From assembly GCF_033096445.1 (NCBI RefSeq), contig NZ_AP028155.1, positions 2,981,880 through 3,045,879 of the forward strand: a stretch of 64,000 bases of DNA, read 5' to 3'. The position numbers and the translations under genes were made by a program. Below are positions 31,269-44,702 of the stretch, one piece after another. The stretch is from Butyricimonas faecihominis (GTDB taxonomy: Bacteria > Bacteroidota > Bacteroidia > Bacteroidales > Marinifilaceae). Each line of letters starts with the position of its first letter. Positions within the stretch are counted from its first letter, which is position 1. The notes under the pieces are model-generated. The model saw only the letters and a program-made list of their open reading frames with translations. It was not told the DNA's origin and searched no databases.

Positions 31269-32054
31269 ATGTTTATAGATACTCACTCACACATCTATGC
31301 CGAAGAGTTCGACAATGACAGGGAAGAAGTTATTCAACGGGCGTTAGCAGCCAACGTCCGACAGATTGTACTGCCGGATATTGACAACACGACCCGGCAA
31401 GCAATGTTATCACTGGCGCAAGCCCACCCGGACATGATGTACCCCACGCTGGGTGTACACCCGACTTCCGTAAACGAATCCTACAAAACGGAAATGCAAC
31501 TTTTCGAGAAATTACTAAGCCAAGAAACAATACACGGAATCGGAGAGTGTGGAATTGATCTTTACTGGGATAAAACATTTTACAAGGAACAAATTATTGT
31601 CTTCGAACGACAATTAAACATCGCCCGGGAAATGGATTTGCCCGTTATCATCCATTCGAGAGACTCGCTAATGGAAATATTCACCGTGTTAAAAAGACAA
31701 CACTATAACATGAAAGGTATACTCCACTGTTTCCCCGGCACGGAAGAAGATGCCCGTCGGGCAATAGACTTAGGTTTTCTACTGGGGATCGGTGGTGTCG
31801 TTACCTTCAAAAAATCATCCATGGCTGAAGTCGTGGAGAAAACCGGGGCAGAACACCTTGTATTAGAAACGGATGCTCCCTATCTTGCCCCCGTTCCCTA
31901 CCGGGGTAAACGCAATGAAAGTAGTTATATTACGTGTATAGCCGCTAAAATTGCTGAAATTCTAGGGATCGACACGAAAAAAGTCGAGGAAATAACAACG
32001 AATAATGCAATGAATTTATTTAATTTGCACGTCAGTAGTGCGAACTGTTCATAG
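31269..32054 (+). CDS. TatD family metal-dependent hydrolase
   Basis: The 261-residue cytoplasmic TIM-barrel hydrolase of the TatD/YcfH family is associated with 3'-5' DNase or quality-control activity. Metal ligands are visible in DTHSHIY (N-terminus), GIGECGIDLYWD, IIHSRDS, LHCFPG and LETDAPYLAP. Length is normal. It heads a short run with the asparaginase gene (84-nt gap). Confidence 0.94.
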   Translation: MFIDTHSHIYAEEFDNDREEVIQRALAANVRQIVLPDIDNTTRQAMLSLAQAHPDMMYPTLGVHPTSVNESYKTEMQLFEKLLSQETIHGIGECGIDLYWDKTFYKEQIIVFERQLNIAREMDLPVIIHSRDSLMEIFTVLKRQHYNMKGILHCFPGTEEDARRAIDLGFLLGIGGVVTFKKSSMAEVVEKTGAEHLVLETDAPYLAPVPYRGKRNESSYITCIAAKIAEILGIDTKKVEEITTNNAMNLFNLHVSSANCS

Positions 32055-32138
32055 AAAAGATGCAGACAGGTAATTTACTGACGAAAAGTGCAGAGGGAGC
32101 TTAAAGCTTGTAATGTTTTAGTTTTTAACTTAGTGCGT

Positions 32139-33179
32139 ATGACAAAACCCGTGTTAATCATATATACCGGAGGTACAATCGGGATGGTAAACGATCCCGA
32201 AACTGGGGCGTTATGCCCTTTCAATTTTGACCAGATCGCTTGCGAGGTTCCGGAAATCAAAGAATTTGGATTCACGATAGATAGTTACACCTTACCGGAA
32301 ATCATAGATTCCTCAGATCTCCAACCACAATTGTGGAAAGACCTCTGTTCAATCATCTTGAAAAATTACGATGATTACCGGGGATTTGTTGTCCTGCATG
32401 GAACGGACACCATGGCCTACTCGGCCGCGGCCTTGAGTTTCATGTTAAATAACTTGACCAAACCCGTGATCTTTACCGGTTCCCAGCTACCTATCGGGAA
32501 AATCAGAACGGACGGGAAAGAAAACCTGATCGCGGCCATTGAAATAGCAGCCGCTTACGATCAAGAAAAGGCCATTGTCCCGGAAGTCTGCATCCTGTTC
32601 GGGGATAAACTATTCCGAGGAAACCGGACGACAAAAATAAACGCGGAAAGTTTCGATGCCTTCCAGTCATTCAACTACCCGGCATTGGCAAACATCGGGA
32701 TACATATTCATTACGATTACAGTGCAATCGATTACACCCTGCGAACGGAACCCGTAAGTGCATTCTGTGACGTGGACACGAATATCGCCATATTGAAAAT
32801 ATTCCCGGGTATGAGACCGGAAGTGATTGACGCAGTAACAGGGATTCCCGGGTTAAAAGGAATCATTCTGGAAACATACGGGTCAGGCAACGCTCCCACG
32901 AATAAAGTTTTTCTTAACAAGATCAAGGAAGTACTATCCAAGGGAATTTTCGTGTATAACGTCACCCAATGTCAAGGTGGGAGCGTCGAGATGGGTAAGT
33001 ATGAAACAAGTAGAGAGCTACTTAACGCGGGAGTCATCAGCGGTCACGACATTACCACGGAAGCCGCTGTATGCAAAATGATGTATGTACTGGGCAAATA
33101 TAAAGACACTAACGAAATAAAAAAATATTTAAATAACGGCTTAAAGGGAGAAATATCCCCCAAATATATTGGATTTTAA
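32139..33179 (+). CDS. ansA: type I L-asparaginase
   Basis: This enzyme hydrolyses asparagine to aspartate and ammonia in the cytoplasm. From ATG 32139 it has 346 residues, as type I enzymes do. The two catalytic threonine motifs are present: IIYTGGTIGM near the N-terminus and VVLHGTDTMAYSAAALSFM. There is no signal peptide. The open frame extends to 32088, but the 17 extra residues are not family-like. The product aspartate feeds ArgG, and ammonium the GdhA reaction, but no direct link is shown. Confidence 0.94.
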   Translation: MTKPVLIIYTGGTIGMVNDPETGALCPFNFDQIACEVPEIKEFGFTIDSYTLPEIIDSSDLQPQLWKDLCSIILKNYDDYRGFVVLHGTDTMAYSAAALSFMLNNLTKPVIFTGSQLPIGKIRTDGKENLIAAIEIAAAYDQEKAIVPEVCILFGDKLFRGNRTTKINAESFDAFQSFNYPALANIGIHIHYDYSAIDYTLRTEPVSAFCDVDTNIAILKIFPGMRPEVIDAVTGIPGLKGIILETYGSGNAPTNKVFLNKIKEVLSKGIFVYNVTQCQGGSVEMGKYETSRELLNAGVISGHDITTEAAVCKMMYVLGKYKDTNEIKKYLNNGLKGEISPKYIGF

Positions 33180-33307
33180 CATTTTTTTTATACCTTGGTG
33201 CCCGATTTTAACCGGCACACGGTGTAAAACAAGAACGAAACAGCTTAAATAGATATTATAGAGTTAAATTTTAATTATTAATAAACTAAAAATCAGTTAA
33301 ATTGATC

Positions 33308-34126
33308 ATGAGAAAATTATTTGCACTAATAGCAGTTTTAGGAATGCTTACTATTGGAGCATCATCTATGCTAATGGCTCAAGAGAATGAAACAACTCAA
33401 ACAGAGACCACTGAAACGACAGAAACTTATCAAGAAGAAGAGGAAACGACAGATCCTACCGTGTTAGAAGACGAATCACAAATCGAAAGTACTTCTTTCC
33501 ACGCTGCCTTGAAACAAAAATTCATCGAGGGAGGTGCCGCCTTCATGAGTTTCGTTATCTTGTGTTTGATCTTCGGTTTGGCTATCGCTATCGAAAGAGT
33601 CATTTACTTGAACTTGGCTTCTACCAACACGAAAAAATTAATTGTAAGTGTTGAAGATGCATTAAACAACGGTGGAGTTGAAGCTGCAAAAGAAGTTTGC
33701 CGCAACACGAGAGGCCCCATTGCAAGTATTTTCTATCAAGGGTTATGCCGCTATGATCAAGGAATCGACATGGTTGAAAAATCAGTTGTATCATACGGTT
33801 CTGTTCAAATGGGACTTTTGGAAAAAGGAATGTCTTGGATTAGTTTGTTTATTGGATTGGCCCCGATGTTAGGATTCTTGGGAACTGTAATCGGTATGAT
33901 CGACGCCTTCGATAAGATTCAAGCAGCAGGAGATATCCAACCGTCATTGGTGGCTGGAGGTATCAAGGTTGCATTGATCACGACCGTGGGTGGTTTGATC
34001 GTGGCCATGATTCTTCAAGTATTCTACAACTACTGTATTGCTAAGATTGAAAGTATTGTTAATGACATGGAAGACGCTTCCGTAACTTTATTAGACATTC
34101 TTGTCAAATACAATCAAAAACACTAA
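33308..34126 (+). CDS. exbB: ExbB/TolQ/MotA family proton-channel protein
   Basis: The inner-membrane energiser subunit uses the proton gradient to power TonB (or TolA-like) action on outer-membrane receptors such as the SusC proteins here. The 272-residue product has a cleavable-looking N-terminal hydrophobic segment, an acidic Thr/Glu-rich linker (about 25-60, TETTETTETYQEEEE), a first TM (about 80-98), the cytoplasmic domain, and two C-terminal TM helices with the typical LAPMLGFLGTVIGMIDAF and TTVGGLIVAMI. The ATG at 33308 is preferred to the TTG at 33302. It is followed after 3 nt by the next gene, in an operon with two ExbD genes. Confidence 0.94.
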   Translation: MRKLFALIAVLGMLTIGASSMLMAQENETTQTETTETTETYQEEEETTDPTVLEDESQIESTSFHAALKQKFIEGGAAFMSFVILCLIFGLAIAIERVIYLNLASTNTKKLIVSVEDALNNGGVEAAKEVCRNTRGPIASIFYQGLCRYDQGIDMVEKSVVSYGSVQMGLLEKGMSWISLFIGLAPMLGFLGTVIGMIDAFDKIQAAGDIQPSLVAGGIKVALITTVGGLIVAMILQVFYNYCIAKIESIVNDMEDASVTLLDILVKYNQKH

Positions 34127-34129
34127 ACC

Positions 34130-34576
34130 ATGCAGAAAATAAACAAAATATTAAACATCATGACCATCGTAATGTTCGTCGTTACGATCGTGTTATTGGG
34201 GTTATTTTATTTTGGAGGCGAACTTCCAAACTCACAATATTCCACCCCGGTATACACGGAACAACTACTATGGTGGTCATATCTTTTATTTGGCGTTGCC
34301 ATTGTTGCAGCGTTAATATTCCCGGTTGCTAGATTATTCACCAGACCAAAGGAAGCGATGAAGAGCTTTATTGCCCTTGCAGGGATCATTCTCCTCGTGT
34401 TAATCGCTTACTCGATGTCTGACGGAACTATCATGAATATTCCGGGATATAGCGGTGCGGACAACGTTCCGGGAACTTTAAAATTCACTGACACCATCCT
34501 AATCACAACTTATTTCTTGGGAATAGGAGCTATTGGTGCTATTGTTGTTACAGAAATTATTAGACGCGTTAGATAA
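34130..34576 (+). CDS. four-TM membrane protein of the ExbB-ExbD cluster, unknown function
   Basis: The 148-residue protein has four predicted membrane helices (about 10-30, 48-67, 80-98 and 122-142) and a short periplasmic stretch with GYSGADNVPGTLKF. I do not recognise a named domain. Its position between exbB (3 nt) and exbD (26 nt) suggests a subunit or assembly factor of this energising complex. Such an extra gene in exbB-exbD clusters is familiar in Bacteroidales, but the role is unknown to me. Confidence 0.85.
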   Translation: MQKINKILNIMTIVMFVVTIVLLGLFYFGGELPNSQYSTPVYTEQLLWWSYLLFGVAIVAALIFPVARLFTRPKEAMKSFIALAGIILLVLIAYSMSDGTIMNIPGYSGADNVPGTLKFTDTILITTYFLGIGAIGAIVVTEIIRRVR

Positions 34577-34602
34577 TTTTCCTGAAGGATAAAAAAGAGA
34601 TT

Positions 34603-35187
34603 ATGGCAAGAAAAAAAACACCAGAAATTAATGCCTCCTCCACCGCGGATATCGCATTTTTGCTGTTGACATTCTTCTTGATGACAACAACGATGGATGT
34701 GGATTCGGGATTATTCAGACGGTTACCACCGATGCCGCCACCAGATCAGGTGATTGCACCTCCTGTTGCCAAACGTAATATATTACAAGTGTTGGTAAAC
34801 AAGAACGATTTGTTGGCCGTGAACGGGGAACTGATGCAAATTGAGAACCTGAAGGAAAAGGCTAAAGAGTTTATTTTGAACCCGCAAAACAGAGAAGATT
34901 TACCGAGTAAAGTTGTTAAGGAAATTCCTTTCTTCGGACAAGCTGAAGTTTCAAGAGGAATTATCTCTCTTCAAAGTGACCGAGGAACTTCATACAAAAT
35001 GTATATTGCCGTTCAAGATGAACTGACAGCAGCATATAATGAAATTAGGGATATGAAAGCCATGGAAAAATGGGGTAAGAAATATAGCGAACTCACGGAA
35101 GAACAAATGGACGCTGTGAGAAAACTTGTTCCTACCGCTATATCCGAGGCTGAACCTAAAAACATCGGGAAAGGAGGAAAGAAGTAA
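34603..35187 (+). CDS. exbD: ExbD/TolR family protein, first copy
   Basis: The 194-residue protein has an N-terminal cytoplasmic tail, a single TM helix with the essential aspartate (STADIAFLLLTFFLMTTTMD), a proline-rich periplasmic linker (LPPMPPPDQVIAPP) and a ExbD periplasmic domain. It pairs with ExbB. Its length exceeds that of E. coli ExbD (141) owing to an insertion in the periplasmic part. The stop overlaps the next start by one base. Confidence 0.93.
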   Translation: MARKKTPEINASSTADIAFLLLTFFLMTTTMDVDSGLFRRLPPMPPPDQVIAPPVAKRNILQVLVNKNDLLAVNGELMQIENLKEKAKEFILNPQNREDLPSKVVKEIPFFGQAEVSRGIISLQSDRGTSYKMYIAVQDELTAAYNEIRDMKAMEKWGKKYSELTEEQMDAVRKLVPTAISEAEPKNIGKGGKK

Positions 35188-35654
35188 TGGCTAAATTTAG
35201 AAAAGAAGGCGGAAAAGAGACCCCTGCAATTTCAACAGCGTCTCTACCGGACATCGTGTTCATGCTATTATTCTTCTTCATGGTTAGTACCACGATGCGA
35301 GAAGTTCTCGTGATGGTTGATAACGGTATGCCCGAAGCAAAAGAGATTAGCAAGCTAGAGAAAAAATCTTTGGTTAGTAATATCTTCATCGGAAAACCGA
35401 AAGACCAGTACGTGGCTACTTACGGAAGTGAACCTCGTATTCAGTTGAATGATAAGCTGGCAAACGTAAGTGAAATCAGTAGTTTCGTTGCCGCTGAACA
35501 AGAAACTCGTAAAGAGGAAGAACGGAACATGATCACGAATAACTTAAAAGTTGATCAGTTTACAAAAATGGGTATCGTAACCGACGTAAAACAAGAATTG
35601 CGTAAAGCGAATTCTTTACGTGTAAGCTACGCTACTCGTAAAAAGGTAAAATAG
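35187..35654 (+). CDS. exbD: ExbD/TolR family protein, second copy
   Basis: The 155-residue paralogue of the preceding gene has the TM segment PDIVFMLLFFFMVSTTMREV with the conserved Asp. Two non-identical ExbD proteins beside one ExbB suggest a heteromeric ExbD dimer in the channel. No tonB gene is nearby. A strong terminator follows within 18 nt. Confidence 0.93.
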   Translation: MAKFRKEGGKETPAISTASLPDIVFMLLFFFMVSTTMREVLVMVDNGMPEAKEISKLEKKSLVSNIFIGKPKDQYVATYGSEPRIQLNDKLANVSEISSFVAAEQETRKEEERNMITNNLKVDQFTKMGIVTDVKQELRKANSLRVSYATRKKVK

Positions 35655-35671
35655 TTTATCTATTATACATT

Positions 35672-35702
35672 AAAAAAGGGAGCAAATTGCTCCCTTTTTT
35701 TA
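35672..35702 (+). terminator. terminator of the exbB-exbD cluster
   Basis: AAAAAAGGGAGCAA / TTGCTCCCTTTTTT form a perfect stem-loop with A and T tracts on both sides, so it could work in both directions. It ends the exb transcript just before the tRNA gene. Confidence 0.92.
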
Positions 35703-35712
35703 AAAATTTGAT

Positions 35713-35720
35713 TAGCTTTG
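35713..35720 (+). promoter_or_regulatory. -7 box of the tRNA-Arg gene
   Basis: TAGCTTTG matches TAnnTTTG, 14 nt before the tRNA 5' end. The -33 element is not clear because the terminator occupies that position. Confidence 0.45.
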
Positions 35721-35734
35721 CACTCGGATAATAT

Positions 35735-35809
35735 GGTCCCCTAGTTCAATGGATAGAATGAAGGATTCCGGTTCCTTTGATATGGGTTCGAGTCCCGTGG
35801 GGATCACCA
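35735..35809 (+). tRNA. tRNA-Arg (anticodon CCG), CCA encoded
   Basis: The cloverleaf can be drawn in full: acceptor GGTCCCC / GGGGATC, D arm GTTC...GAAT, anticodon stem AAGGA / TCCTT with loop TTCCGGT (anticodon CCG, reads CGG), T arm ATGGG-TTCGAGT-CCCGT, discriminator A and CCA. Total 75 nt. It stands directly upstream of the ORF6N array. Confidence 0.93.
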
Positions 35810-35820
35810 CTTTACCACAT

Positions 35821-35860
35821 AACCTGCTAAAACACAAAATGTTATAGCAGGTTGTTTTTT
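35821..35860 (+). terminator. terminator of the tRNA-Arg gene
   Basis: AACCTGCTA / TAGCAGGTT form a 9-bp stem with a 15-nt loop, followed by G and a run of six T. Confidence 0.85.
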
Positions 35861-35908
35861 ATATAGCCAATATATAAGCCAAAACAACAAACTATTCTCG
35901 TTTTTCCC

Positions 35909-35916
35909 TACATTTG
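35909..35916 (+). promoter_or_regulatory. -7 box of the ORF6N array
   Basis: TACATTTG matches TAnnTTTG, 24 nt before the first ORF6N start. No convincing TTTG is found 19-21 nt upstream. Confidence 0.4.
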
Positions 35917-35939
35917 TATAGAACAACACAAGCGTAATT

Positions 35940-36527
35940 ATGGCTAACTTGCAAATCATACAAAGTAAAATATACGAGATCAGGGGCCAGAAAGTAATGT
36001 TAGATTTCGATCTGGCAGAGCTATATGGCATTGAAACTAGGGTACTTAAACAAGCAGTCAGACGTAATTCAGCACGTTTTGAAGGAGAAGATTTCATGTT
36101 TGAACTTACCAAAGAAGAAATTTCAAGATCACAAATTGTGATCTTGAACAAAGGAAGAGGATCCAACATAAAATATGCCCCTTTTGCTTTCACAGAATTA
36201 GGAGTAGCGATGCTTAGCAGTGTTCTTAATTCACCAACTGCCATCGAGATAAATAGGGGTATCATGCGAGCCTTTGTCGCAATGCGTCAATTAATACATA
36301 CCTCTCCTGTTGATAATATCGGTGAACTAAAAAACGAATTAAAGGAACTGAAAGAATACATCGAAGATGTTTTTACTGACCAAAACGACATAAACGAAGA
36401 CACTCGGATACAACTCGAATTAATAAATCAAACCTTAGCGGAACTGCAGACAAAAGACCGAGGATTTAAGGAAAGAAAAAGAATCGGGTACAAACTACCG
36501 GGATGTGAAGAGGAGGAAAAGAAATAA
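35940..36527 (+). CDS. ORF6N domain protein, copy 1 (type A)
   Basis: The 195-residue protein has the ORF6N domain (KilA-N-related, known from phage antirepressors and DNA-binding proteins) at about residues 8-110: IQSKIYEIRGQKVMLDFDLAELY, VLKQAVRRN, RFEGEDFMFELT, NKGRGSNIKY, PFAFTELGVAMLSSVLNS, IMRAFVAMRQ. A helical, probably coiled-coil tail follows (about 115-175), then a basic end (KERKRIGYKLPGCEEEEKK). It is expected to bind DNA; the cellular role is unknown. Codons for S-R-S-Q-I-V-I-L-N lie in a 27-bp palindrome (36122-36148). First of four tandem paralogues; same type as copy 3. Confidence 0.88.
   Translation: MANLQIIQSKIYEIRGQKVMLDFDLAELYGIETRVLKQAVRRNSARFEGEDFMFELTKEEISRSQIVILNKGRGSNIKYAPFAFTELGVAMLSSVLNSPTAIEINRGIMRAFVAMRQLIHTSPVDNIGELKNELKELKEYIEDVFTDQNDINEDTRIQLELINQTLAELQTKDRGFKERKRIGYKLPGCEEEEKK
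36122..36148. repeat. 27-bp palindrome inside ORF6N copy 1
   Basis: Left arm TTCAAGATCACAA (36122-36134), central A, right arm TTGTGATCTTGAA (36136-36148). The 13-bp arms are perfectly complementary. It lies about 195 nt into the gene, in frame as ...TCA CAA ATT GTG A.... Confidence 0.95.
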
Positions 36528-36544
36528 ACAACACAAGCATAATC

Positions 36545-37135
36545 ATGGATAATTTACAATTGATACAAAGCAAAATATACGAGATCAGAGGACGGAAGGT
36601 GATGTTGGATCGAGATTTCGCAGAGTTATACCAAGTCACAACAGGTAACTTGAACAAAGCTGTTCAAAGAAACATTAAAAGATTCCCTCCAGACTTTATG
36701 TTTCAGCTCACAAAGGAAGAATTTGATGAATTAAAAGCCAACTTGATCTTCCAAAATGGAATATCAAATTGGGGAGGAACTCGCAAATTTCCTTATGCAT
36801 TCACGGAACAAGGGTTAGCGATGTTATCCGGAATTCTCAATAGTGATATAGCCATTAATGTAAATATCTCAATAATGCGGGCTTTTGTGGATATTCGCCA
36901 AATGATCGCCAGCCCAAAAACAAATAAGATCGATGAACTCGAAAAACGAATGGATGCAATAGAAAACTATATCGAAGAAGTGTTTTCCGACTATAACGAC
37001 ATTAACGACGATACCCGAATGCAACTCGAATTAATAAATCAAACTTTAGCGGAACTACAGACAAAAGACCGGGGATTTAAGGAAAGGAAACGGATTGGGT
37101 ACCAGTTGCCGGGATGCGAAGAGGAAAAGAAATAA
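36545..37135 (+). CDS. ORF6N domain protein, copy 2 (type B)
   Basis: The 196-residue protein has an ORF6N domain of a second type (LDRDFAELYQVTTGNLNKAVQRN, RFPPDFMFQLT, PYAFTEQGLAMLSGILNSD, IMRAFVDIRQM), a helical tail with DELEKRMDAIENYIEEVFSD and the same C-terminal segment as type A (LELINQTLAELQTKDRGFKE). The palindrome at 36739-36771 encodes A-N-L-I-F-Q-N-G-I-S-N-W. It starts 18 nt after copy 1 behind a conserved AACAACACAAGCATAATC spacer. It is nearly identical to copy 4 outside a block at 36664-36793. Confidence 0.88.
   Translation: MDNLQLIQSKIYEIRGRKVMLDRDFAELYQVTTGNLNKAVQRNIKRFPPDFMFQLTKEEFDELKANLIFQNGISNWGGTRKFPYAFTEQGLAMLSGILNSDIAINVNISIMRAFVDIRQMIASPKTNKIDELEKRMDAIENYIEEVFSDYNDINDDTRMQLELINQTLAELQTKDRGFKERKRIGYQLPGCEEEKK
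36739..36771. repeat. 33-bp imperfect palindrome inside ORF6N copy 2
   Basis: Left arm CAACTTGATCTTCCA (36739-36753), centre AAA, right arm TGGAATATCAAATTG (36757-36771). Thirteen of 15 positions pair; the inner TTCCA/TGGAA is perfect. It occupies the same alignment position as the palindromes of copies 1, 3 and 4. Confidence 0.88.
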
Positions 37136-37152
37136 ACAACACGAGCGTGATT

Positions 37153-37748
37153 ATGGATAATTTACAATTGATACAAAGCAAAATATACGAGATTAGGGGA
37201 CAGAAGGTGATGTTAGACTTCGACCTAGCAGAATGTACTGTGTCGAAACAAAACGCCTCAAAGAAGCCGTGAGGCGTAATATAGACAGGTTTGAAGGTGA
37301 TGATTTTATGTTTGAGCTTACAAAAAAAGAAATAACCGAACTTTCAAGGACGCAATTTGCGACCTTGAACAAGGGACGTGGAAGCAATATAAAATATCTT
37401 CCTTTCGCTTTTACTGAACTCGGAGTAGCGATGCTTAGTAGCGTTTTGAACTCCAAGCCTGCGATAGAAATAAATAGGGGAATAATGCGGGCTTTCGTGG
37501 CAGTCCGGCAAATGCTGTCCAACCCCATAGAAAGCCGTGTTGAAAGGATCGAAACACAAGTAAAGGAACTCAAACAATACATGGAAGAGGTTCTAGTAGA
37601 TCAAAATGACATCAATGATGATACCATGATTCAACTCGAATTAATAAATCAAACCTTAGCGGAACTGCAGACAAAAGACCGGGGATTTAAGGAAAGAAAA
37701 AGAATCGGATACAAACTACCGGGATGTGAAGAGGAGGAAAAGAAATAA
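37153..37748 (+). pseudogene. ORF6N domain gene, copy 3 (type A), frameshifted
   Basis: ATG 37153 with the array's usual start context opens the frame M-D-N-L-Q-L-I-Q-S-K, which matches its paralogues up to LDFDLAE. A single base is missing after 37233 (GCA GAA then TGTACTG, where a codon such as NTG TAC TGT is expected), and the frame ends at a TGA about 40 nt later. From 37233 the continuing frame gives 171 residues (C-V-E-T-K-R-L-K-E-A-V-R-R-N onward), with the rest of the ORF6N domain and tail intact. Either the gene is broken or the deletion is recent, phase-variable or a sequencing error; there is no homopolymer at the site. An internal start at 37233 would lack the first 25 residues. 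Confidence 0.82.
37343..37369. repeat. 27-bp near-perfect palindrome inside ORF6N copy 3
   Basis: Left arm TTCAAGGACGCAA (37343-37355), central T, right arm TTGCGACCTTGAA (37357-37369). Twelve of 13 positions pair. It encodes S-R-T-Q-F-A-T-L-N. Confidence 0.93.
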
Positions 37749-37765
37749 ACAACGCAAGCATAATC

Positions 37766-38362
37766 ATGGATAATTTACAATTGATACAAAGCAAAATATA
37801 CGAGATCAGAGGACGGAAGGTGATGTTGGATCGAGATTTGGCAGAGTTATACCAAGTCACAACAGGTAACTTGAACAAAGCTGTAAAGCGAAATCTCAAA
37901 AGATTTCCTCCCGATTTCATGTTTCAGTTAACAGCTGAAGAGTGGGAAGCTTTAAGATTCCAAATTGGAATCTTAAAGAATGGTAGAGGGGAACACACGA
38001 AATATCTACCGTATGCATTCACGGAACAAGGGTTAGCGATGTTATCCGGAATCCTCAATAGTGATATAGCCATTAATGTAAATATCTCAATAATGCGGGC
38101 TTTTGTGGCTATTCGCCAAATGATCGCCAGCCCCAAAACAAATAAGATCGATGAACTCGAAAAACGAATGGATGCGATAGAAAACTATATCGAAGAAGTG
38201 TTTTCCGACTACAACGACATTAACGACGATACCCGGATGCAACTTGAACTAATAAATCAAACCTTGGCGGAATTGCAGGTAAAAGACCGAGGATGCAAGG
38301 AAAGAAAACAGATCGGGTACAAGTTACCGGGATACGAAGAAGATGATAAAACTAAATATTAA
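37766..38362 (+). CDS. ORF6N domain protein, copy 4 (type B)
   Basis: The 198-residue paralogue of copy 2 shares its first 40 and last 110 codons almost base for base, including the helical tail DELEKRMDAIENYIEEVFSD. The central block (37885-38011) differs: VKRNLKRFPPDFMFQLTAEE, WEALRFQIGILKNG, RGEHTKYLPYAFTE. The perfect 29-bp palindrome 37950-37978 encodes L-R-F-Q-I-G-I-L-K. The C-terminal end has drifted (GCKERKQIGYKLPGYEEDDKTKY). It starts 18 nt after copy 3 with the same spacer and runs into the DJ-1-like gene. Confidence 0.88.
   Translation: MDNLQLIQSKIYEIRGRKVMLDRDLAELYQVTTGNLNKAVKRNLKRFPPDFMFQLTAEEWEALRFQIGILKNGRGEHTKYLPYAFTEQGLAMLSGILNSDIAINVNISIMRAFVAIRQMIASPKTNKIDELEKRMDAIENYIEEVFSDYNDINDDTRMQLELINQTLAELQVKDRGCKERKQIGYKLPGYEEDDKTKY
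37950..37978. repeat. 29-bp perfect palindrome inside ORF6N copy 4
   Basis: Left arm CTTTAAGATTCCAA (37950-37963), central A, right arm TTGGAATCTTAAAG (37965-37978). All 14 positions pair. Confidence 0.95.
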
Positions 38363-38366
38363 AAGA

Positions 38367-38957
38367 ATGGATAAAAAAGAAGTAATTTTTGTACTACTAA
38401 ACAATTTTGCAGACTGGGAAGGTGCTTATATCTCCACCTGCCTAAATATGGGTGTCAAACCGGGATGTCCGATTAAATACAAGGTGAAAACGTTGTCACT
38501 ATCCAAAGAACCCATTACCTCGATAGGTGGATTCAGGGTATTGCCGGATTATGATATTAACGACCTACCGGATGATCATGCAGGACTTATACTCATCGGC
38601 GGCATGAACTGGTTTTTGCCCGAGGCGAAACCCATCGCATCATTAGTGGAAAAAGCAATTGCGGAAAGCAAACTGGTTGCCGGAATCTGTAATGCCTCCG
38701 TGTATCTCGGAATGTATGGTTTCCTCAACCACGTAAAACATACAAGTAACACGCTGGATTACCTCAAACAATATGCAGGTACCCAGTACACGGGTGAAAC
38801 TAATTACATAAACGACCAAGCTGTAAGAGACAATAACATAGTAACGGCTAACGGTAATGCCCCTTTGGAATTTTGCCGGGAGATTTTATATCAATTGAAT
38901 GCCGCAACACCGGAAATTATAGAAGAGACTTATTCATTCTATAAAAACGAACTTTAA
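38367..38957 (+). CDS. DJ-1/PfpI family protein (type 1 glutamine amidotransferase-like)
   Basis: The 196-residue cytoplasmic protein has the DJ-1/PfpI fold: KEVIFVLLNNFADWEGAY (with the conserved acidic residue), GLILIGGMNWF, and the nucleophile elbow VAGICNASVYLG. Members are chaperones, glyoxalases, proteases or regulators, and the activity here is open. The frame is open from 38343, but ATG 38367 avoids overlap with the ORF6N stop. It is close behind the ORF6N array (4-nt gap) and could share its transcript. A terminator follows. Confidence 0.85.
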   Translation: MDKKEVIFVLLNNFADWEGAYISTCLNMGVKPGCPIKYKVKTLSLSKEPITSIGGFRVLPDYDINDLPDDHAGLILIGGMNWFLPEAKPIASLVEKAIAESKLVAGICNASVYLGMYGFLNHVKHTSNTLDYLKQYAGTQYTGETNYINDQAVRDNNIVTANGNAPLEFCREILYQLNAATPEIIEETYSFYKNEL

Positions 38958-39043: not shown

Positions 39044-41524
39044 ATGCAAAGACCTTTCAAATTTACCAAACTCAAACTCATCACGGGATATATCCTAATT
39101 CTCTTGTTAGGAGCAATTGCAATTGTCTTTATCTACAAACAAACCATTGCCTTAACCCAAAAAGGGAATGATGAAATCGTCATGCAACAAAAACTATTCA
39201 TCATAAGTAACACGCTCACCAAACTATACGAGGCAGAAAATACCGGAATCGCCTTTTCCCAAACGGGAACACAAAAGAATTTTGACACCTATATGAAATT
39301 GATAGAGGACATCAAGGACAACATGGATACCTTGAAAAATCTATCCATCAGCTCGGAACAAAACCTGCGAATAGACACGATAAATACGCTTTTAGGCAAA
39401 CGGATCAAGAATCTGAAAGACTTGTATTACGTCAAAAAATATTACATCCCAGAGGATTTCTACAACAAAACAATCGAAAAAATAGGCACGCTCAAAGATT
39501 CGGCAGATATCATCCCCGATCTCCGGGAAAAAATCATTACCGTCATTGACAGTAACTACATCATCCGGGAAAGAAAAGGATTATTCCGGACGAAAAGAGA
39601 TTCCATCCTAAAAGTTGACACAACCCTCCATCGCATCGTTGACACGCTCAGTATGGTCACGACAAACAACAACACGGACACATTAATGAACGTGATTCGG
39701 GATTCATGGAGCCAGTACCAGCAGCAAAAGGAAGAGATCGATGCGGAAGTCTCCCGGCGAGAGGCGATCGTTATCCAAAGTGGTCAACACATCACGGAAC
39801 GCCTCAAGCGAGTACTGAAAGACCTTGAAAAAGAAGAACTCGAAAACACGATGATTCGCTTGGAACAACAGCAAATCACGACACATCATCTCACCAGAAC
39901 CATATCTTGGATCGCGATCATCGCTTGTGTGCTGGTGGTCTTCTTCGTCGTTCTTATTATCAATGACATCACGCAAAGTCAACGATACAGGCGGGAACTG
40001 GAAGCTGCAAAAACATACACGGAACGGTTGCTACATAACCGGGAGAAACTCATGCTGACTGTCACTCACGACATAAAATCCCCTCTAAGCTCCATCATCG
40101 GGTACATTGAACTACTAAATAACACCCAACTGGAGGAGCGACAGCACTATTTTCTCAAAAACATGAAGGGGACAGCCGAACATATCCTGCATCTTGCCAA
40201 TAACATGCTTGATTTCTCCAAATTGGAATCCAATAAAATGGAGATCAACACGGTTCCATATAACCCGGGACGTCTGTTACAGGAGACGACGGATAGTTTC
40301 CTTCCTCTAGCGGCACAAAAGAGTCTGGAATTGAAAAGCGATATTAGCAACGCCCTGAACGGACTTTACCTCGGGGATTCCATGAAAGTTCGCCAAATCG
40401 TGGTTAATATCCTATCGAACGCCATAAAATACACCCGGGAAGGAAAGGTTTCTTTATCCGCCTTTATTTCCCCTACAAAAGACGACCAGTTTATCATTGT
40501 AATCAAAGACTCCGGGCCGGGAATGACGGAAGAGGAACAAGAACTGATCTTTAAAGAATTCACCCGCCTAACCCCGCAGCATAACAACGGGGCGGAAGGC
40601 ACAGGTCTTGGCTTAACAATCACATTACAACTCGTTCATTTACTTGATGGTGAATTAACCCTCGAAAGTAAAAAAGGCGAGGGAAGTACCTTCACGGTTA
40701 AATTCCCGTTGATAAAGGCCACAGCACAAGAATCCCAACCGACAGAAACACCCTCTTCACCCCCGGTTAGGCATGAAGGGATGAAAGCCTTTATCATCGA
40801 TGATGACATTCTTCAACTGACCGTCACGACAGAATTACTCCGAAAAGCAGGCATCCAGTGTGACACGTGTACGCACCCTCAAGAGGCACTATCCCGTTTG
40901 GAAAAAGGGAATTATAACATTGTTTTATCCGACATCCAGATGCCGGAAATGGACGGGTTCGAACTCGTGCAACAAATCCGAGAATCCCAAAACCAACAAA
41001 TAAAAAGCCTTCCGGTAATTGCTCTGTCTGCCCGTGACGATATGCACGAAAAAGAGTATCAAGAAGCCGGCTTTTCAGCCTATCTAAATAAACCGTATAC
41101 CCCGGAACAACTATATAGCAGGGTAAACGACCTGTTAGGATGTGCGATAGAAACCAAACAGCCGACAACACAAACCTCTGATAAAAACGCCCCTTACAAT
41201 TTAGATATGATCATGGTCTTTGCCGACAATGACAAAGATGCCGCCAATCAAATTATCGGGTCTTTTATATCGGATTGCAAGACCAATTTCCAGCTATTGG
41301 CCCAACATCTGGAATCACATGAAACGGAACAGATTGCCAAGTTAGCACACAAAATGCTACCCATGTTCAAGCAACTAGCGATTAACGATGTCATTCCCTC
41401 GTTGCTTTTCCTGGAAAAAATGCCATTGGATACAGAGGAAAATAAAATAAGAGAGAGTATTGAAAAGATCCTGCAAGAAGGAAACAATGTTCTCCAATTA
41501 CTGGAAAAAGAAACACGTCAATAA
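39044..41524 (+). CDS. hybrid sensor histidine kinase with receiver and HPt-like domains
   Basis: The 826-residue membrane kinase has TM1 (about 13-31), a 250-residue periplasmic helical sensor, TM2 (about 286-306), HisKA with phospho-acceptor H342 (TVTHDIKSPLSSIIGYIE), HATPase_c (N-box IVVNILSNAIKYT, G-boxes KDSGPGMTEEE and GTGLGLTI), a receiver domain with D630 (IVLSDIQMPEMDGFEL) and a C-terminal HPt-like domain with H769 (AKLAHKMLPMFKQL). An internal His-Asp-His relay is expected to pass phosphate to a separate regulator. The convergent sigma54 response regulator 14 nt away is the natural candidate. The signal is unknown. Confidence 0.94.
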   Translation: MQRPFKFTKLKLITGYILILLLGAIAIVFIYKQTIALTQKGNDEIVMQQKLFIISNTLTKLYEAENTGIAFSQTGTQKNFDTYMKLIEDIKDNMDTLKNLSISSEQNLRIDTINTLLGKRIKNLKDLYYVKKYYIPEDFYNKTIEKIGTLKDSADIIPDLREKIITVIDSNYIIRERKGLFRTKRDSILKVDTTLHRIVDTLSMVTTNNNTDTLMNVIRDSWSQYQQQKEEIDAEVSRREAIVIQSGQHITERLKRVLKDLEKEELENTMIRLEQQQITTHHLTRTISWIAIIACVLVVFFVVLIINDITQSQRYRRELEAAKTYTERLLHNREKLMLTVTHDIKSPLSSIIGYIELLNNTQLEERQHYFLKNMKGTAEHILHLANNMLDFSKLESNKMEINTVPYNPGRLLQETTDSFLPLAAQKSLELKSDISNALNGLYLGDSMKVRQIVVNILSNAIKYTREGKVSLSAFISPTKDDQFIIVIKDSGPGMTEEEQELIFKEFTRLTPQHNNGAEGTGLGLTITLQLVHLLDGELTLESKKGEGSTFTVKFPLIKATAQESQPTETPSSPPVRHEGMKAFIIDDDILQLTVTTELLRKAGIQCDTCTHPQEALSRLEKGNYNIVLSDIQMPEMDGFELVQQIRESQNQQIKSLPVIALSARDDMHEKEYQEAGFSAYLNKPYTPEQLYSRVNDLLGCAIETKQPTTQTSDKNAPYNLDMIMVFADNDKDAANQIIGSFISDCKTNFQLLAQHLESHETEQIAKLAHKMLPMFKQLAINDVIPSLLFLEKMPLDTEENKIRESIEKILQEGNNVLQLLEKETRQ

Positions 41525-41538
41525 TCTCTCAAAATATC

Positions 41539-42873
41539 TCATAAGTCCTCCAGACCGAAACTTTTTAATTTATTATACAATGTTTTCCTGTCTATCTGGA
41601 GCATACGGGCAGCCTCGCTCTTGTTGTTCCGGCATTTCTGCATGGCATCCTTGATCAGCTCGATTTCCATCTCCCGCCGTGTTGTAGATGTCCTTTCAGG
41701 CTCCACGGGCTTTTGCTCCAACTCCGGGGGCAAACAGGTCTTGGAAATCAAACTTCCCATACACAACAACGTCGCCCGTTTCACGATATTACGCATTTCC
41801 CGCAAATTCCCCGGCCACGAGTAAGTTCTAAAAATACGCATCACCTCCTCATCAAACCCGGTCACTTGTTTCCCCAGTTCCTCGTTCGCCTTATCCAAGA
41901 AATGATTGGCAAAAATCAGAATATCCTCTTTTCTCTCCCGAAGGGGCAATGCCTGAATGGAAAATTCATTCAAACGATGATACAAATCCTCGCGGAAACG
42001 ACCACTCGCGACGGCCTCTTTGAGATTCTCATTCGTGGCTGAAATAATACGAACATCAAAAGGAATATCAACATTTCCGCCCACGGGATGTACTTTACGC
42101 TCTTCGAGTGCGCGCAACAACTGAACTTGCACGTCATAAGGCAAATTACCAATCTCATCCAAGAAAATAGTCCCCCCCGATGCGGTCACGAAATACCCCT
42201 GTTTATCGGTAACGGCACCCGTGAAAGAACCCTTAATATGCCCGAAGAACTCACTCGCAGCAAGGTCCTTCGGTATTGCCCCACAATCAACCGCCACGAA
42301 AGGCCCGTCCTTCCGGTTACTCATCGAGTGAATCAGGCGAGCGATATACTCTTTACCCGTACCACTCTCCCCGTTAATCAAAACCGTCATCGTGGTAGGC
42401 CCCACCAGATGAATATATTCATATTGCCGATCGGCACCTTCACTCACTCCTTTTATATAGGAAAAGCTCGTCGTTTTCGCTTTTGCAGGAACAGACTTGG
42501 CAACGGGTTCTGCCTCCAACTTCAAAGCTTCCTGCAACTTTTTAAGAATCTCATCCGGGATAACAGGCTTGGCCACGTAGTCAAAAGCCCCCAGTTTAAT
42601 CGCCGTGACCGCGGTCTGTATATCGGCATACCCTGTCATCAGAAGCACCTGTGTTTCCGGTGTTTTCTCCTTGATCACCCGCAGCAAATCGATCCCGTCC
42701 TTATCCGGCAAACGCAAATCCGTCAACACGAGATCGAATCCTGCTTTATCCAATTGTTTTACAGCGTCCTTGTAGGAAAAAGCAGTATCTACCTCAAATC
42801 CACGTTTTTCCAACCATTTTCTCAGCATGATACAAAATGTTGTATCGTCATCCACGATTAAAATCTTTGCCAT
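41539..42873 (-). CDS. sigma54-dependent response regulator, NtrC family
   Basis: The 444-residue activator has an N-terminal receiver (D52 in VLTDLRLPDKDG, LLMTGYADIQTA, the lysine in YVAKPV), an AAA+ domain (Walker A GESGTGKEYIARL, sigma54-contact loop GSFTGA, Walker B GTIFLDEIG) and a C-terminal Fis-type helix-turn-helix (NKSEAARMLQIDRKTLYNKL). It needs RpoN and enhancer sites. GTG 42894 is upstream in frame, but ATG 42873 begins exactly at MAKILIVDDD. The convergent partner is the hybrid kinase. An 8-bp inverted repeat spans its likely promoter. Confidence 0.95.
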   Translation of the reverse strand: MAKILIVDDDTTFCIMLRKWLEKRGFEVDTAFSYKDAVKQLDKAGFDLVLTDLRLPDKDGIDLLRVIKEKTPETQVLLMTGYADIQTAVTAIKLGAFDYVAKPVIPDEILKKLQEALKLEAEPVAKSVPAKAKTTSFSYIKGVSEGADRQYEYIHLVGPTTMTVLINGESGTGKEYIARLIHSMSNRKDGPFVAVDCGAIPKDLAASEFFGHIKGSFTGAVTDKQGYFVTASGGTIFLDEIGNLPYDVQVQLLRALEERKVHPVGGNVDIPFDVRIISATNENLKEAVASGRFREDLYHRLNEFSIQALPLRERKEDILIFANHFLDKANEELGKQVTGFDEEVMRIFRTYSWPGNLREMRNIVKRATLLCMGSLISKTCLPPELEQKPVEPERTSTTRREMEIELIKDAMQKCRNNKSEAARMLQIDRKTLYNKLKSFGLEDL

Positions 42874-42874
42874 A

Positions 42875-42914
42875 AGTCGATTTATTTCTAACACGAAAAT
42901 AGCCTTAATCGACT
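42875..42914 (-). promoter_or_regulatory. inverted repeat across the response-regulator promoter
   Basis: AGTCGATT (42875-42882) and AATCGACT (42907-42914) are perfect 8-bp inverted repeats with a 24-bp spacer. On the minus strand the spacer contains TATTTTCG (42894-42901), a one-mismatch -7 box. It could be an autoregulatory operator. Confidence 0.4.
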
Positions 42915-42949
42915 AAACAAAAAAGTTTTTAACGGAATTTAGGAAAAGA

Positions 42950-42984
42950 AAGCAGGTAACCCTCTGGAAAAGAGATACCTGCTT
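42950..42984 (-). terminator. stem-loop, possible minus-strand terminator
   Basis: Perfect 9-bp arms AAGCAGGTA / TACCTGCTT enclose 17 nt. On the minus strand the stem is followed by the pyrimidine-rich TCTTTTCC rather than a pure T run. It could end a transcript from argH or the small ORF. Confidence 0.4.
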
Positions 42985-43116
42985 GAAACAAATGTAATAA
43001 ATCTCCTCAAACCTCCAACTACACGAATAAAACTCCCGCTCTTACTAACGGATATTGACGTATATCCGTCGTGTTTATATTAATAATTGTCTATCATCAA
43101 GATGATTAGGTTCACT

Positions 43117-43200
43117 CTACTTCATTTCAGGTTCTGCTAAAAAATGCGGTAACAAAAGTCCCGAAATAGCTATTACGATAAAAAATATACAAATTCCCAT
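43117..43200 (-). CDS. candidate small membrane peptide, 27 aa
   Basis: ATG 43200 to TAG 43117 encodes 27 residues with a hydrophobic stretch (CIFFIVIAISGLLLPHFL) and a charged end (AEPEMK). The form resembles one-helix small membrane proteins such as KdpF, but no kdp genes are near and I see no firm match. There is no Shine-Dalgarno, which is usual in this phylum. It may be chance. Confidence 0.3.
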   Translation of the reverse strand: MGICIFFIVIAISGLLLPHFLAEPEMK

Positions 43201-43323
43201 AACCAATCAATTTTAATCATTCAACCATTTGCTTATAGTATAGAGAATTGTATGCCACCACAAAACAGAATATACAATTACAAAATAATCAACTACTTAT
43301 ACAGTAATCTTAATAAATAAGTA

Positions 43324-43353
43324 TGTGGAAAAATGTGGAACAAGTGTGGAAAA
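43324..43353 (-). repeat. three DnaA-box-like 9-mers
   Basis: TGTGGAAAA (43324), TGTGGAACA (43334) and TGTGGAAAA (43345) occur at 10- and 11-bp spacing. On the minus strand the outer two read TTTTCCACA, which fits the relaxed DnaA box TTWTNCACA. They lie 6 nt from the argH stop. Confidence 0.45.
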
Positions 43354-43358
43354 AATCC

Positions 43359-44702
43359 CTATAACCTGTTCCCCAACAGACCTTCTATCGCCTCACGAAC
43401 CGTAGTAATGTCCCACTCAGATACTCTTTGCTCGAATTTACTTTTAATCTCCGTCAAGCAAAGATTACCCATACTTCCCTCGTGCGTATGATGAATTTCC
43501 CGTACCCCATCTCGATAACTCCCCTCTTGAATTTGCATTCCGATTTCCCGGTAAGCCTCCCGAAACGGGATTCCGGCCATTACCCGTTCATTCACATCCT
43601 CCACGGAAAAAATATAGGCATAACGAGGATCTCGTAAAACATCCCGTTTCACATCCATCTCCTGCAACACGAGATGAGCCATAAAAAGGGAATCGTTCAA
43701 CTCTTGAAAAGCGGGTAAAAATAACTCCTTGGTCAATTGCATATCCCGAAAATACCCGGAAGTCAGGTTCGTACAGATCATAGCCATTTGCATGGGGAGC
43801 GATTGCAAGTGATTACATTTCGCCCGGATCAACTCGAATATATCCGGGTTCTTCTTGTGCGGCATGATACTGGACCCCGTTGTGTACTTATCCGGCAAAC
43901 GTACAAAACCGAAATTACTACAAGCGAAAAGACAAACATCGGCAGCCAAACGTCCCAGAGTCGTCGCCACGGCAGCCAGCCCGAATAACACGTTCTTTTC
44001 CATCTTTCCCCTCTGCATCTGGGCATAAACCACGTTATAAGCCAAACTTGAAAATCCGAGCAAATCAGTCGTCATTTGCCGATTCAAAGCAATCGACGAG
44101 CCATACCCCGCCCCGGAACCAAGAGGATTCGTGTTCACCATATCGTAAGCCGCCTTCAACGCCAACAAATCGTCAGCAAGCGATTCGGCATAAGCACCAA
44201 ACCACAAGCCGAAAGAAGAAGGCATGGCCACCTGCAAATGCGTGTAACCGGGAATCAACACATCTTTATTCTCCCCTGCCCGTCGTATCAACAAATCAAA
44301 CAAACGTTCTATATGTTCCAACGTTTCGAATATCGCCTCCCGGGTAAATAACTTCAAATCGAGTAACACTTGATCATTCCGGGAACGTCCCGTGTGAATC
44401 TTTTTCCCCGCATCCCCACATTCCCGCACCAGCAATAACTCGATCTGAGAATGCACGTCTTCAATTCCCTCTCCTATCACGAACTCGCCCCTTTCCACCA
44501 TTTCGTGAATATCAACCAATGCCCGCTGCAAAGATTTATATTCCGCCTCGTTCACCAAGCCCACGGTATGTAACATTTTCAAATGAGCCAAATTCCCGAT
44601 GACATCGGCCCCCGCCAGCATAACATCCAGCTCCCGGTCTTTCCCTATCGTAAATAATTCCGTAAAACCATCTATATCATATCCTTTATCCCAAAGCTTC
44701 AT
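43359..44702 (-). CDS. argH: argininosuccinate lyase
   Basis: ArgH splits argininosuccinate into arginine and fumarate, the last step of arginine synthesis. The 447-residue product has normal length, with the family regions HTGRSRNDQVLLDLKLF, LIPGYTHLQVAMPSSFG, NPLGSGAGYG and the fumarase-superfamily signature GSSIMPHKKNPD containing the catalytic serine. It is the last gene of the arginine cluster, separated from the deacylase gene by 289 nt that hold a repeat element. Confidence 0.96.
   Translation of the reverse strand: MKLWDKGYDIDGFTELFTIGKDRELDVMLAGADVIGNLAHLKMLHTVGLVNEAEYKSLQRALVDIHEMVERGEFVIGEGIEDVHSQIELLLVRECGDAGKKIHTGRSRNDQVLLDLKLFTREAIFETLEHIERLFDLLIRRAGENKDVLIPGYTHLQVAMPSSFGLWFGAYAESLADDLLALKAAYDMVNTNPLGSGAGYGSSIALNRQMTTDLLGFSSLAYNVVYAQMQRGKMEKNVLFGLAAVATTLGRLAADVCLFACSNFGFVRLPDKYTTGSSIMPHKKNPDIFELIRAKCNHLQSLPMQMAMICTNLTSGYFRDMQLTKELFLPAFQELNDSLFMAHLVLQEMDVKRDVLRDPRYAYIFSVEDVNERVMAGIPFREAYREIGMQIQEGSYRDGVREIHHTHEGSMGNLCLTEIKSKFEQRVSEWDITTVREAIEGLLGNRL

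Follow-up and report, generated by a model that had tools for sequence, protein, structure and literature searches.

Four tandem ORF6N genes and their palindromes

A tandem array of four ORF6N genes, each of which contains a long palindrome within its coding sequence, is located on the forward strand of a 64,000-nucleotide (nt) stretch of the Butyricimonas faecihominis genome (contig NZ_AP028155.1), referred to here as the window. Copy 1 (an open reading frame [ORF] of 195 amino acids [aa]) is positioned at 35940–36527, copy 2 (196 aa) at 36545–37135, copy 3 at 37153–37748 and copy 4 (198 aa) at 37766–38362. The palindromes were found at 36122–36148 (copy 1; perfect arms of 13/13 nt around one base), 36739–36771 (copy 2; 13/15 pairs with a 3-nt centre), 37343–37369 (copy 3; 12/13 pairs) and 37950–37978 (copy 4; perfect arms of 14/14 nt), in agreement with a sequence-only reading of the window in which all four had been proposed with these arms. 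Those of copies 1 and 4 were also recovered blind by a repeat finder. When folded as single-stranded DNA and compared with dinucleotide shuffles, the four palindromes displayed z-scores of −4.9, −4.2, −6.2 and −7.0, respectively.

All four copies were assigned to Pfam family PF10543, with scores of 111, 114, 73 and 119 bits for copies 1 to 4, respectively (copy 3: open part only, 37233–37748), against a gathering cut-off of 27.8. ORF6N represents the sole Pfam match of the copies at an E value of 0.001, and one such palindrome was observed per copy. The sequence-only reading had described four tandem ORF6N genes; four palindrome-bearing copies are indeed present, of which three are intact and the third is frameshifted. 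Alignment with the other copies revealed a 1-nt deletion near 37233 (37228–37236), which splits copy 3 into two frames and two Pfam matches while its palindrome is retained. The palindromes of copies 1, 2 and 4 share a single position in the protein alignment and that of copy 3 matches in the DNA alignment, so that the claim of one common position holds for the entire array.

A DNA-level constraint at a set place in ORF6N genes

To compare genes, a palindrome score was defined as the number of pairs minus twice the number of mismatches. Loci were gathered by Pfam model in the genus, family and phylum, and by alignment in viral and named genome contigs, from which a selection favouring the best-scoring matches was analysed. 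The B. faecihominis genome (4.85 Mb, one contig) was shown to encode eight ORF6N genes (nine matches, since copy 3 is split), and in all eight the best palindrome of the domain, with scores of 10–14, occupies the same place. In five other genomes of the genus, a palindrome was present in 12 of 12 ORF6N matches (scores 10–19).

Palindromy at this position in other ORF6N genes had been set beforehand as a test of the sequence-only reading, and a strong excess over synonymous resampling was observed. Among 217 distinct ORF6N genes with a clear FTExG motif, which are related by descent and hence do not represent independent trials, the mean best score was 11.3, compared with 5.6 upon resampling, and 83% of genes exceeded all 20 resamplings. 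A palindrome of score ≥8 was identified between −110 and −30 relative to the FTExG motif in 205 of these 217 genes (12 were without), while 175 of the 187 palindromes of score ≥9 are centred 30–60 nt before the motif. A separate count of 250 genes, which excludes 31 loci fetched by palindrome pattern (L356–L386; the 217-gene set holds none of them), gave a comparable outcome, with 205 of 238 testable genes beating all ten resamplings (mean 11.4 versus 6.0). For flanking ORFs, 25 of 299 tested (654 in total) beat all ten resamplings, approximately the expected one in eleven. In an Escherichia coli control region, 32 of 36 coding sequences were scored (the four shortest being left out and four DNA-binding regulators being included), yielding values of 5–9; one of these 32 genes, mreD (score 9), was not reached by any of 40 resamplings. 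Chance and codon bias were rejected on the basis of synonymous resampling and the flanking ORFs. The palindromes are real and widespread in ORF6N genes, at one set place in the domain and in several phyla, and the anomaly first noticed in the window is more general than initially thought.

The same DNA word was found to be read in two frames, as GG TCG CAA ATT GCG ACC (S-Q-I-A-T) and as G GTC GCA AAT TGC GAC C (V-A-N-C-D, e.g. in L014), the central base occupying codon position 1 (190 genes) or codon position 2 (15 genes). Across the 128 S-Q-x-(V/A/G) sites of the 217-gene set, TCA was combined with GTN in 87 cases, TCG with GCN in 37 and TCC with GGN in one; serine codon choice thus tracks a later codon, and the predicted rule that one codon fixes its mirror partner was borne out with three exceptions. 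A conserved peptide whose codons are palindromic by chance could account for the recurrence of the frame-A peptide R-S-Q-I/F-V/A-T. This explanation is refuted and was given a negligible probability, since resampling removes the palindrome, the second frame encodes a different peptide with an unaltered DNA word, and intergenic copies exist. The two frames, the codon pairing and the sites defined by protein sequence (see below) substantiate the earlier view that coding sequence and a nucleic-acid element coincide in this segment, which protein selection does not explain.

The sequence-only reading had also considered an RNA hairpin, which would act in the mRNA as an internal regulator, comparable to the immunity RNA of satellite P4 that is located inside eta, a Bro-network gene (PMC10111431). 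With DNA parameters, the strand can fold into a stem closed by a loop of 3 nt. For 156 distinct sites of score ≥9, the 1872 cells at offsets 2–13 comprised 1737 paired positions, 20 G:T, 41 A:C and 74 other mismatches, with the surplus of A:C falling mostly at offset 7. G:T mismatches are therefore not in excess of A:C, and the combination of TCG with GTN, corresponding to a G:U pair in RNA, was absent (0/128 sites), so that the stem displays no G:U tolerance. Furthermore, Rfam returned nothing besides a tRNA at gathering score over 35600–38600. An RNA element is accordingly disfavoured and deemed very improbable. As with an operator, the ORF6N palindrome is a symmetric DNA site, fixed within the gene and subject to DNA-level constraint; the element acts at the DNA level in a class of DNA-binding genes.

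Sites outside the gene body and in other gene families

CAAWTTG-centred palindromes of score ≥9 were counted inside and around ORF6N genes, where a site inside another ORF6N gene of the same locus may be counted as upstream or downstream. In total, 136 were located in genes, 20 within 200 nt upstream (~247 genes) and seven within 100 nt downstream (240 genes), compared with 10 upstream per 3982 and three downstream per 3823 gene-by-100-nt units beyond 300 nt. This represents a ~16-fold enrichment upstream of the start over background. Sites may also be multiplied within a gene, as exemplified by L126, which carries an in-frame array of three units, 66 nt apart.

The 17-bp word GGTCRCAAWTTGYGACC was detected in 30 of 296 genomes of the phylum and the reversed palindrome in none. 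At the corresponding 30 loci, ORF6N matches contain 26 of the 33 sites (one match, L363, being weak at 24 bits); five of the remaining seven are near an ORF6N gene and two are at loci without one. A broader word gave nine matches in six genomes of the genus, eight of them in ORF6N genes (reversed control: two), and a stricter word occurred at one site in the B. faecihominis genome itself. A wider regulon was not seen with the broader word in the six genus genomes or with the stricter word in the B. faecihominis genome, nor did these two words display the many copies outside the gene that characterise dispersed repeats (repetitive extragenic palindromes or miniature inverted-repeat transposable elements).

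In viral contigs (L236–L355), GGTCRCAAWTTGYGACC was present in at least 120 stretches, compared with 19, 17 and 15 for three control palindromes, i.e. at least six times as often as each. These stretches (at least 120) represent 93 distinct contexts, of which 19 are in ORFs of ≥100 aa and the others are intergenic or at edges; 45 of the 93 have an adjoining A or T run, as is usual for terminators. Ten proteins were scanned, revealing one match to a crAss muzzle family and one to a P22 portal below cut-off. The viral word was dropped as an ORF6N site, as an ORF6N match encompassed it in only two of an initial 80 loci. Either it represents a common terminator or phages carry the site for another reader.

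On the contig of one ORF6N gene (L186), a DUF1016/YhcG gene identified by Pfam (143–1204) was observed to contain its own 27-nt perfect palindrome, which prompted a test of other families. Within the same phylum, genes whose best palindrome scored above all ten resamplings numbered 16 of 24 for KilA-N, 15 of 23 for RhuM, 16 of 30 for Bro-N and 11 of 27 for DUF1016_N. Each family possesses its own core, with at least two for Bro-N. Measured from the start, the place of palindromes of score ≥9 is tightly confined in KilA-N (182–204 nt), somewhat less so in RhuM and more variable in Bro-N and DUF1016. Nine ORF6N loci outside Bacteroidota, drawn from a set that includes the 31 pattern-fetched loci, exhibited the CAAWTTG centre in seven cases and a close variant in two, while the KilA-N, RhuM, Bro-N and DUF1016 cores differ. 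The centre follows the protein family and not the host. For Phage_pRha, 99 genomes yielded four matches, all weak.

In E. coli K-12, dinD carries a palindrome of score 12 and yhcG tandem units of scores 15, 13 and 10; the best scores were reached by none of 200 resamplings, and ten neighbouring genes peak at 8 and the 32 genes of the other control region at 9. The dinD palindrome is kept in K-12, L522 and L523, and no palindrome of score 8 was found in L524–L528 or in the broken allele of L529. The two allele kinds differ over approximately nt 30–246 (L520 5761–6585; L524–L528). In alleles without it, the palindrome is either dispensable or was lost. A yhcG match is present in 4417 E. coli genomes. 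Alleles of yhcG contain three units in K-12 and L579–L584, two in L532, L585 and L586, and one in L530 and L531. In unit 2, L532 differs from L585 and L586 by a mirrored pair change; K-12 and L584 carry one-arm mismatches.

The palindrome may alternatively be a recombination or mobility site, serving as a breakpoint or target for the exchange and multiplication of the variable gene middle. Within the window, copies 2 and 4 are 97–100% identical in alignment columns 1–120 and 90–100% in columns 271–510, compared with 63–73% between columns 120 and 271, 33% (gaps counted) at the palindrome and 40–80% at the 3′ end. Limited to ~150 columns around the palindrome plus the 3′ end, the divergence (36545–38362) looks like a cassette exchange between paralogues. 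The in-frame multiplication of units (three in L126; one to three in E. coli yhcG) and the description of Bro-network genes as domain-swapping (PMC10111431) are in line with such a role. Conversely, divergent middles can also be obtained from ordinary recombination between paralogues, and no match to recombinase or transposase Pfam families was found in nine neighbouring ORFs of the array (31269–35651 and 39044–44702) or in the next gene (38343–38957). These ten neighbours, one of which is without a match, comprise genes for a TatD DNase, an asparaginase, ExbB/ExbD, a DJ-1/PfpI protein, a histidine kinase, a sigma-54 activator and a lyase. Four broken yhcG alleles, when read closely, also have an insertion sequence (IS) or transposase gene within ~90 nt and represent insertions or deletions, not module swaps: in L533, L534 and L536 the break is followed or preceded at no more than ~55 nt by an IS transposase gene, and the L535 gene ends at nt 405–406, inside the third palindrome, with a transposase gene ~90 nt further on. 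A recombination site was judged improbable, yet a rival to be taken seriously.

Self-matched arms and a putative reader of the site

The pairing of the arms was assessed at sites defined by protein sequence, namely 131 distinct sites from genes of the 217-gene set with exactly one qualifying Gln, to which no palindrome filter was applied. Pairing frequencies at offsets 4, 5, 7 and 8 were 0.93, 0.91, 0.69 and 0.79, and those at offsets 10, 11, 12 and 13 were 0.95, 0.94, 0.80 and 0.76, compared with 0.34 to 0.60 over the same offsets when partners were shuffled (offset 4: 0.34±0.04). Offset 9 showed 0.94 versus 0.69 shuffled, and offsets 1–3 and 6 are near-invariant and provide little information. 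Independent variation of the arms between homologues was thus looked for and does not hold.

At 54 loci with at least two CAAWTTG heptamers near the gene (125 sites, again without a palindrome filter), self-pairing of the arms was 0.73, whereas cross-pairing was 0.48 within a locus and 0.44 between loci; the value for 276 distant heptamers was 0.32. If a single protein with a preference for one half-site were the reader, self- and cross-pairing should be alike. Self-pairing without cross-pairing points instead to hairpin or cruciform pairing, or to template-switch correction, with only the centre being family-specific. The proposal that each palindrome is tuned to the protein of its own copy is not supported by these values. 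Copy-specific dimer specificity was likewise rejected: in a first test, in-gene and neighbouring sites were slightly more alike than expected (7.75 versus 6.83 of 13), but on a set that held ordinary terminators and pattern-fetched loci, and the unfiltered heptamer test revealed little locus effect.

Quasipalindrome template switching is a known mechanism by which the arms of inverted repeats are made to match (PMC8604942, PMC8794818). If it were the cause here, the core would be present for some reason and switching during replication would keep overwriting one arm with its partner, so that mirrored changes would arise while the arms themselves are free of selection. Such a process predicts the observed self-pairing without cross-pairing at one locus, and homogenisation of arms by template switching, accompanied by amino-acid changes, has been described in yeast genes (PMC8604942). 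The mirrored change in both arms of one yhcG unit, beside one-arm alleles, is a further point in its favour. However, any gene is open to template switching, which predicts no set position in particular families, yet flanking ORFs display no excess (25/299) and the 32 E. coli controls peak at 9. The family restriction, the fixed position across phyla and in two frames, and the copies near start codons would also be left unexplained. Template-switch self-correction is considered unlikely, though it deserves attention, and it may operate together with the reading of the site by the encoded protein, to which we now turn.

The DNA-level constraint, the fixed position, the self-matched arms, the start-codon copies, the almost complete confinement of the tested word to ORF6N genes within the genus and the family-specific centres have all been demonstrated. 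They are most economically read as a cis site of the gene itself, acting at the DNA level, which the encoded protein would read for self-limitation, a reading which we favour tentatively and with less than even confidence, the reader and the function being putative. Within its own gene, the putative DNA-binding ORF6N protein, probably as a dimer, would recognise the symmetric and conserved centre (NCAAWTTGN), and in ~7% of genes it would do so just upstream of the start codon as well. The protein may thereby limit its own expression, by repression or as a roadblock. The flanking arms would need only to pair with each other, and may be kept paired via a hairpin or cruciform function or via template-switch correction during replication. 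Its roles as reader and as limiter of its own expression, as well as its dimeric state, are inferred. Of the options of the sequence-only reading, an operator, a recombination site and a nuclease site are all candidates, the operator being favoured because copies occur near start codons and the centre follows the protein family. CapR, described as a member of the Bro network, represses by binding the −35 region of a promoter (PMC10111431), which was counted in support. The nuclease domain of YhcG is described as closest to Holliday-junction resolvases (PMC1189080), which would suit a cruciform.

Several observations weigh against this proposed self-reading. A half-site common to all sites of one reader was not observed (0.48 versus 0.73), although this comparison assumes one reader for all sites of a locus, the shared part being the centre alone, and a locus may be read by several proteins. 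A plain dimer operator does not need self-matching arms that differ between neighbouring sites, so that hairpin pairing or mutational correction must be added. An upstream site was present in only 18 of 250 ORF6N genes (~7%), and the start-codon argument applies to ORF6N genes only, because KilA-N, Bro-N, RhuM and DUF1016 together gave one clear case of a same-core upstream copy (L451). The word GGTCRCAAWTTGYGACC is also frequent in viral contigs, where ORF6N matches were found in only six of 120 stretches (of at least 120). Moreover, of the 4668 genomes with a dinD match, no more than 1526 covered at least 80% of the K-12 gene, and the allele without palindrome may be the commoner kind.

The protein model of copy 4, based on 38 sequences (mean predicted local distance difference test 82.6, predicted template modelling score 0.58), consists of a small α/β domain and a long helix, with the palindrome encoding the end of the predicted helix 57–67 and the start of a lower-confidence loop (68–82). 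The best solved structural neighbours of the model were a Ski-like protein (Z 6.7), a granulovirus envelope domain (Z 6.4), Dachshund (Z 6.0) and Mbp1 (Z 4.2), indicative of a weak likeness to the Ski/Dachshund DNA-binding motif and Mbp1. These matches are modest, with Z under 8 and the envelope domain being as good as the DNA-binding proteins, and no PDB structure matched at or below an E value of 0.001. By sequence, the best match to a solved relative had an E value of 0.16. Models of viral KilA-N and antirepressor proteins matched at E values of 6e-6 and weaker.

Coding palindromes are already known from three systems. PARCEL elements are likewise coding DNA with dyad symmetry in tandem units of variable number, in accessory genes of several clades, but consist of tandem arrays of a 25-residue amphipathic repeat with imperfect symmetry, many of them in membrane-targeted proteins (PMC2996958). 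The genes described here usually hold a single palindrome that is nearly perfect, has mirrored arms and a centre specific to the family, and occupies a set place in a DNA-binding domain; the window copies hold no 25-residue tandem array, and ORF6N is not mentioned in the main text of the PARCEL paper. Mitochondria of Nematomorpha keep perfect inverted repeats in functional protein-coding genes, which are up to 284 bp long and known from four animal species, with no tie to DNA-binding genes in the abstract (PMC6649704). Palindromic elements of Rickettsia are read in frame within genes, yet are described as selfish inserts of ~100–150 nt in intergenic regions, RNA genes and coding sequences (PMC4316617, PMC2996958), whereas the palindromes described here span 27–43 bp and are a standing feature of whole families. 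The Bro network comprises the ORF6N, KilA-N and Bro-N families, among others, with domain swapping, the repressor CapR and internal RNA regulators in P4 eta (PMC10111431); its main text contains neither ‘palindrom’ nor ‘inverted repeat’, and ‘palindrom’ is absent from the YhcG nuclease-domain paper (PMC1189080). No report of such palindromes in genes of the ORF6N, KilA-N, Bro-N, RhuM or DUF1016 families was found in titles and abstract openings, in a search that left many journals uncovered.

For most members of these families, no target is known to us. Should every gene contain its own, the recognition sites of numerous uncharacterised proteins could be deduced directly from the genes that encode them, a proposition which would be directly testable, also with dinD and yhcG of E. 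coli K-12. It would furthermore constitute an unusual case of one stretch that satisfies protein and DNA structure together, across phyla. Two halves changing together at a set coding place suggest a DNA control site of the gene within the gene itself. A broader, more speculative and on balance doubtful extension is that these accessory DNA-binding genes (ORF6N, KilA-N, Bro-N/DinD, RhuM and DUF1016/YhcG) are their own DNA substrate. A stretch encoding part of the N-terminal region would then serve as a hairpin site with a family-specific apex and any self-pairing stem, and sites would multiply, change in both arms and be exchanged, giving rise to self-addressed, fast-diversifying elements of phages and bacteria.

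Two further features were noted upstream of the window array. A tRNA-Arg gene (35735–35809) ends 131 nt before copy 1; tRNA genes often serve as integration sites. In addition, a terminator-like hairpin at 35672–35700 (AAAAAAGGGAGCAA-A-TTGCTCCCTTTTTT) displays the same CAAATTG centre as the ORF6N palindromes.

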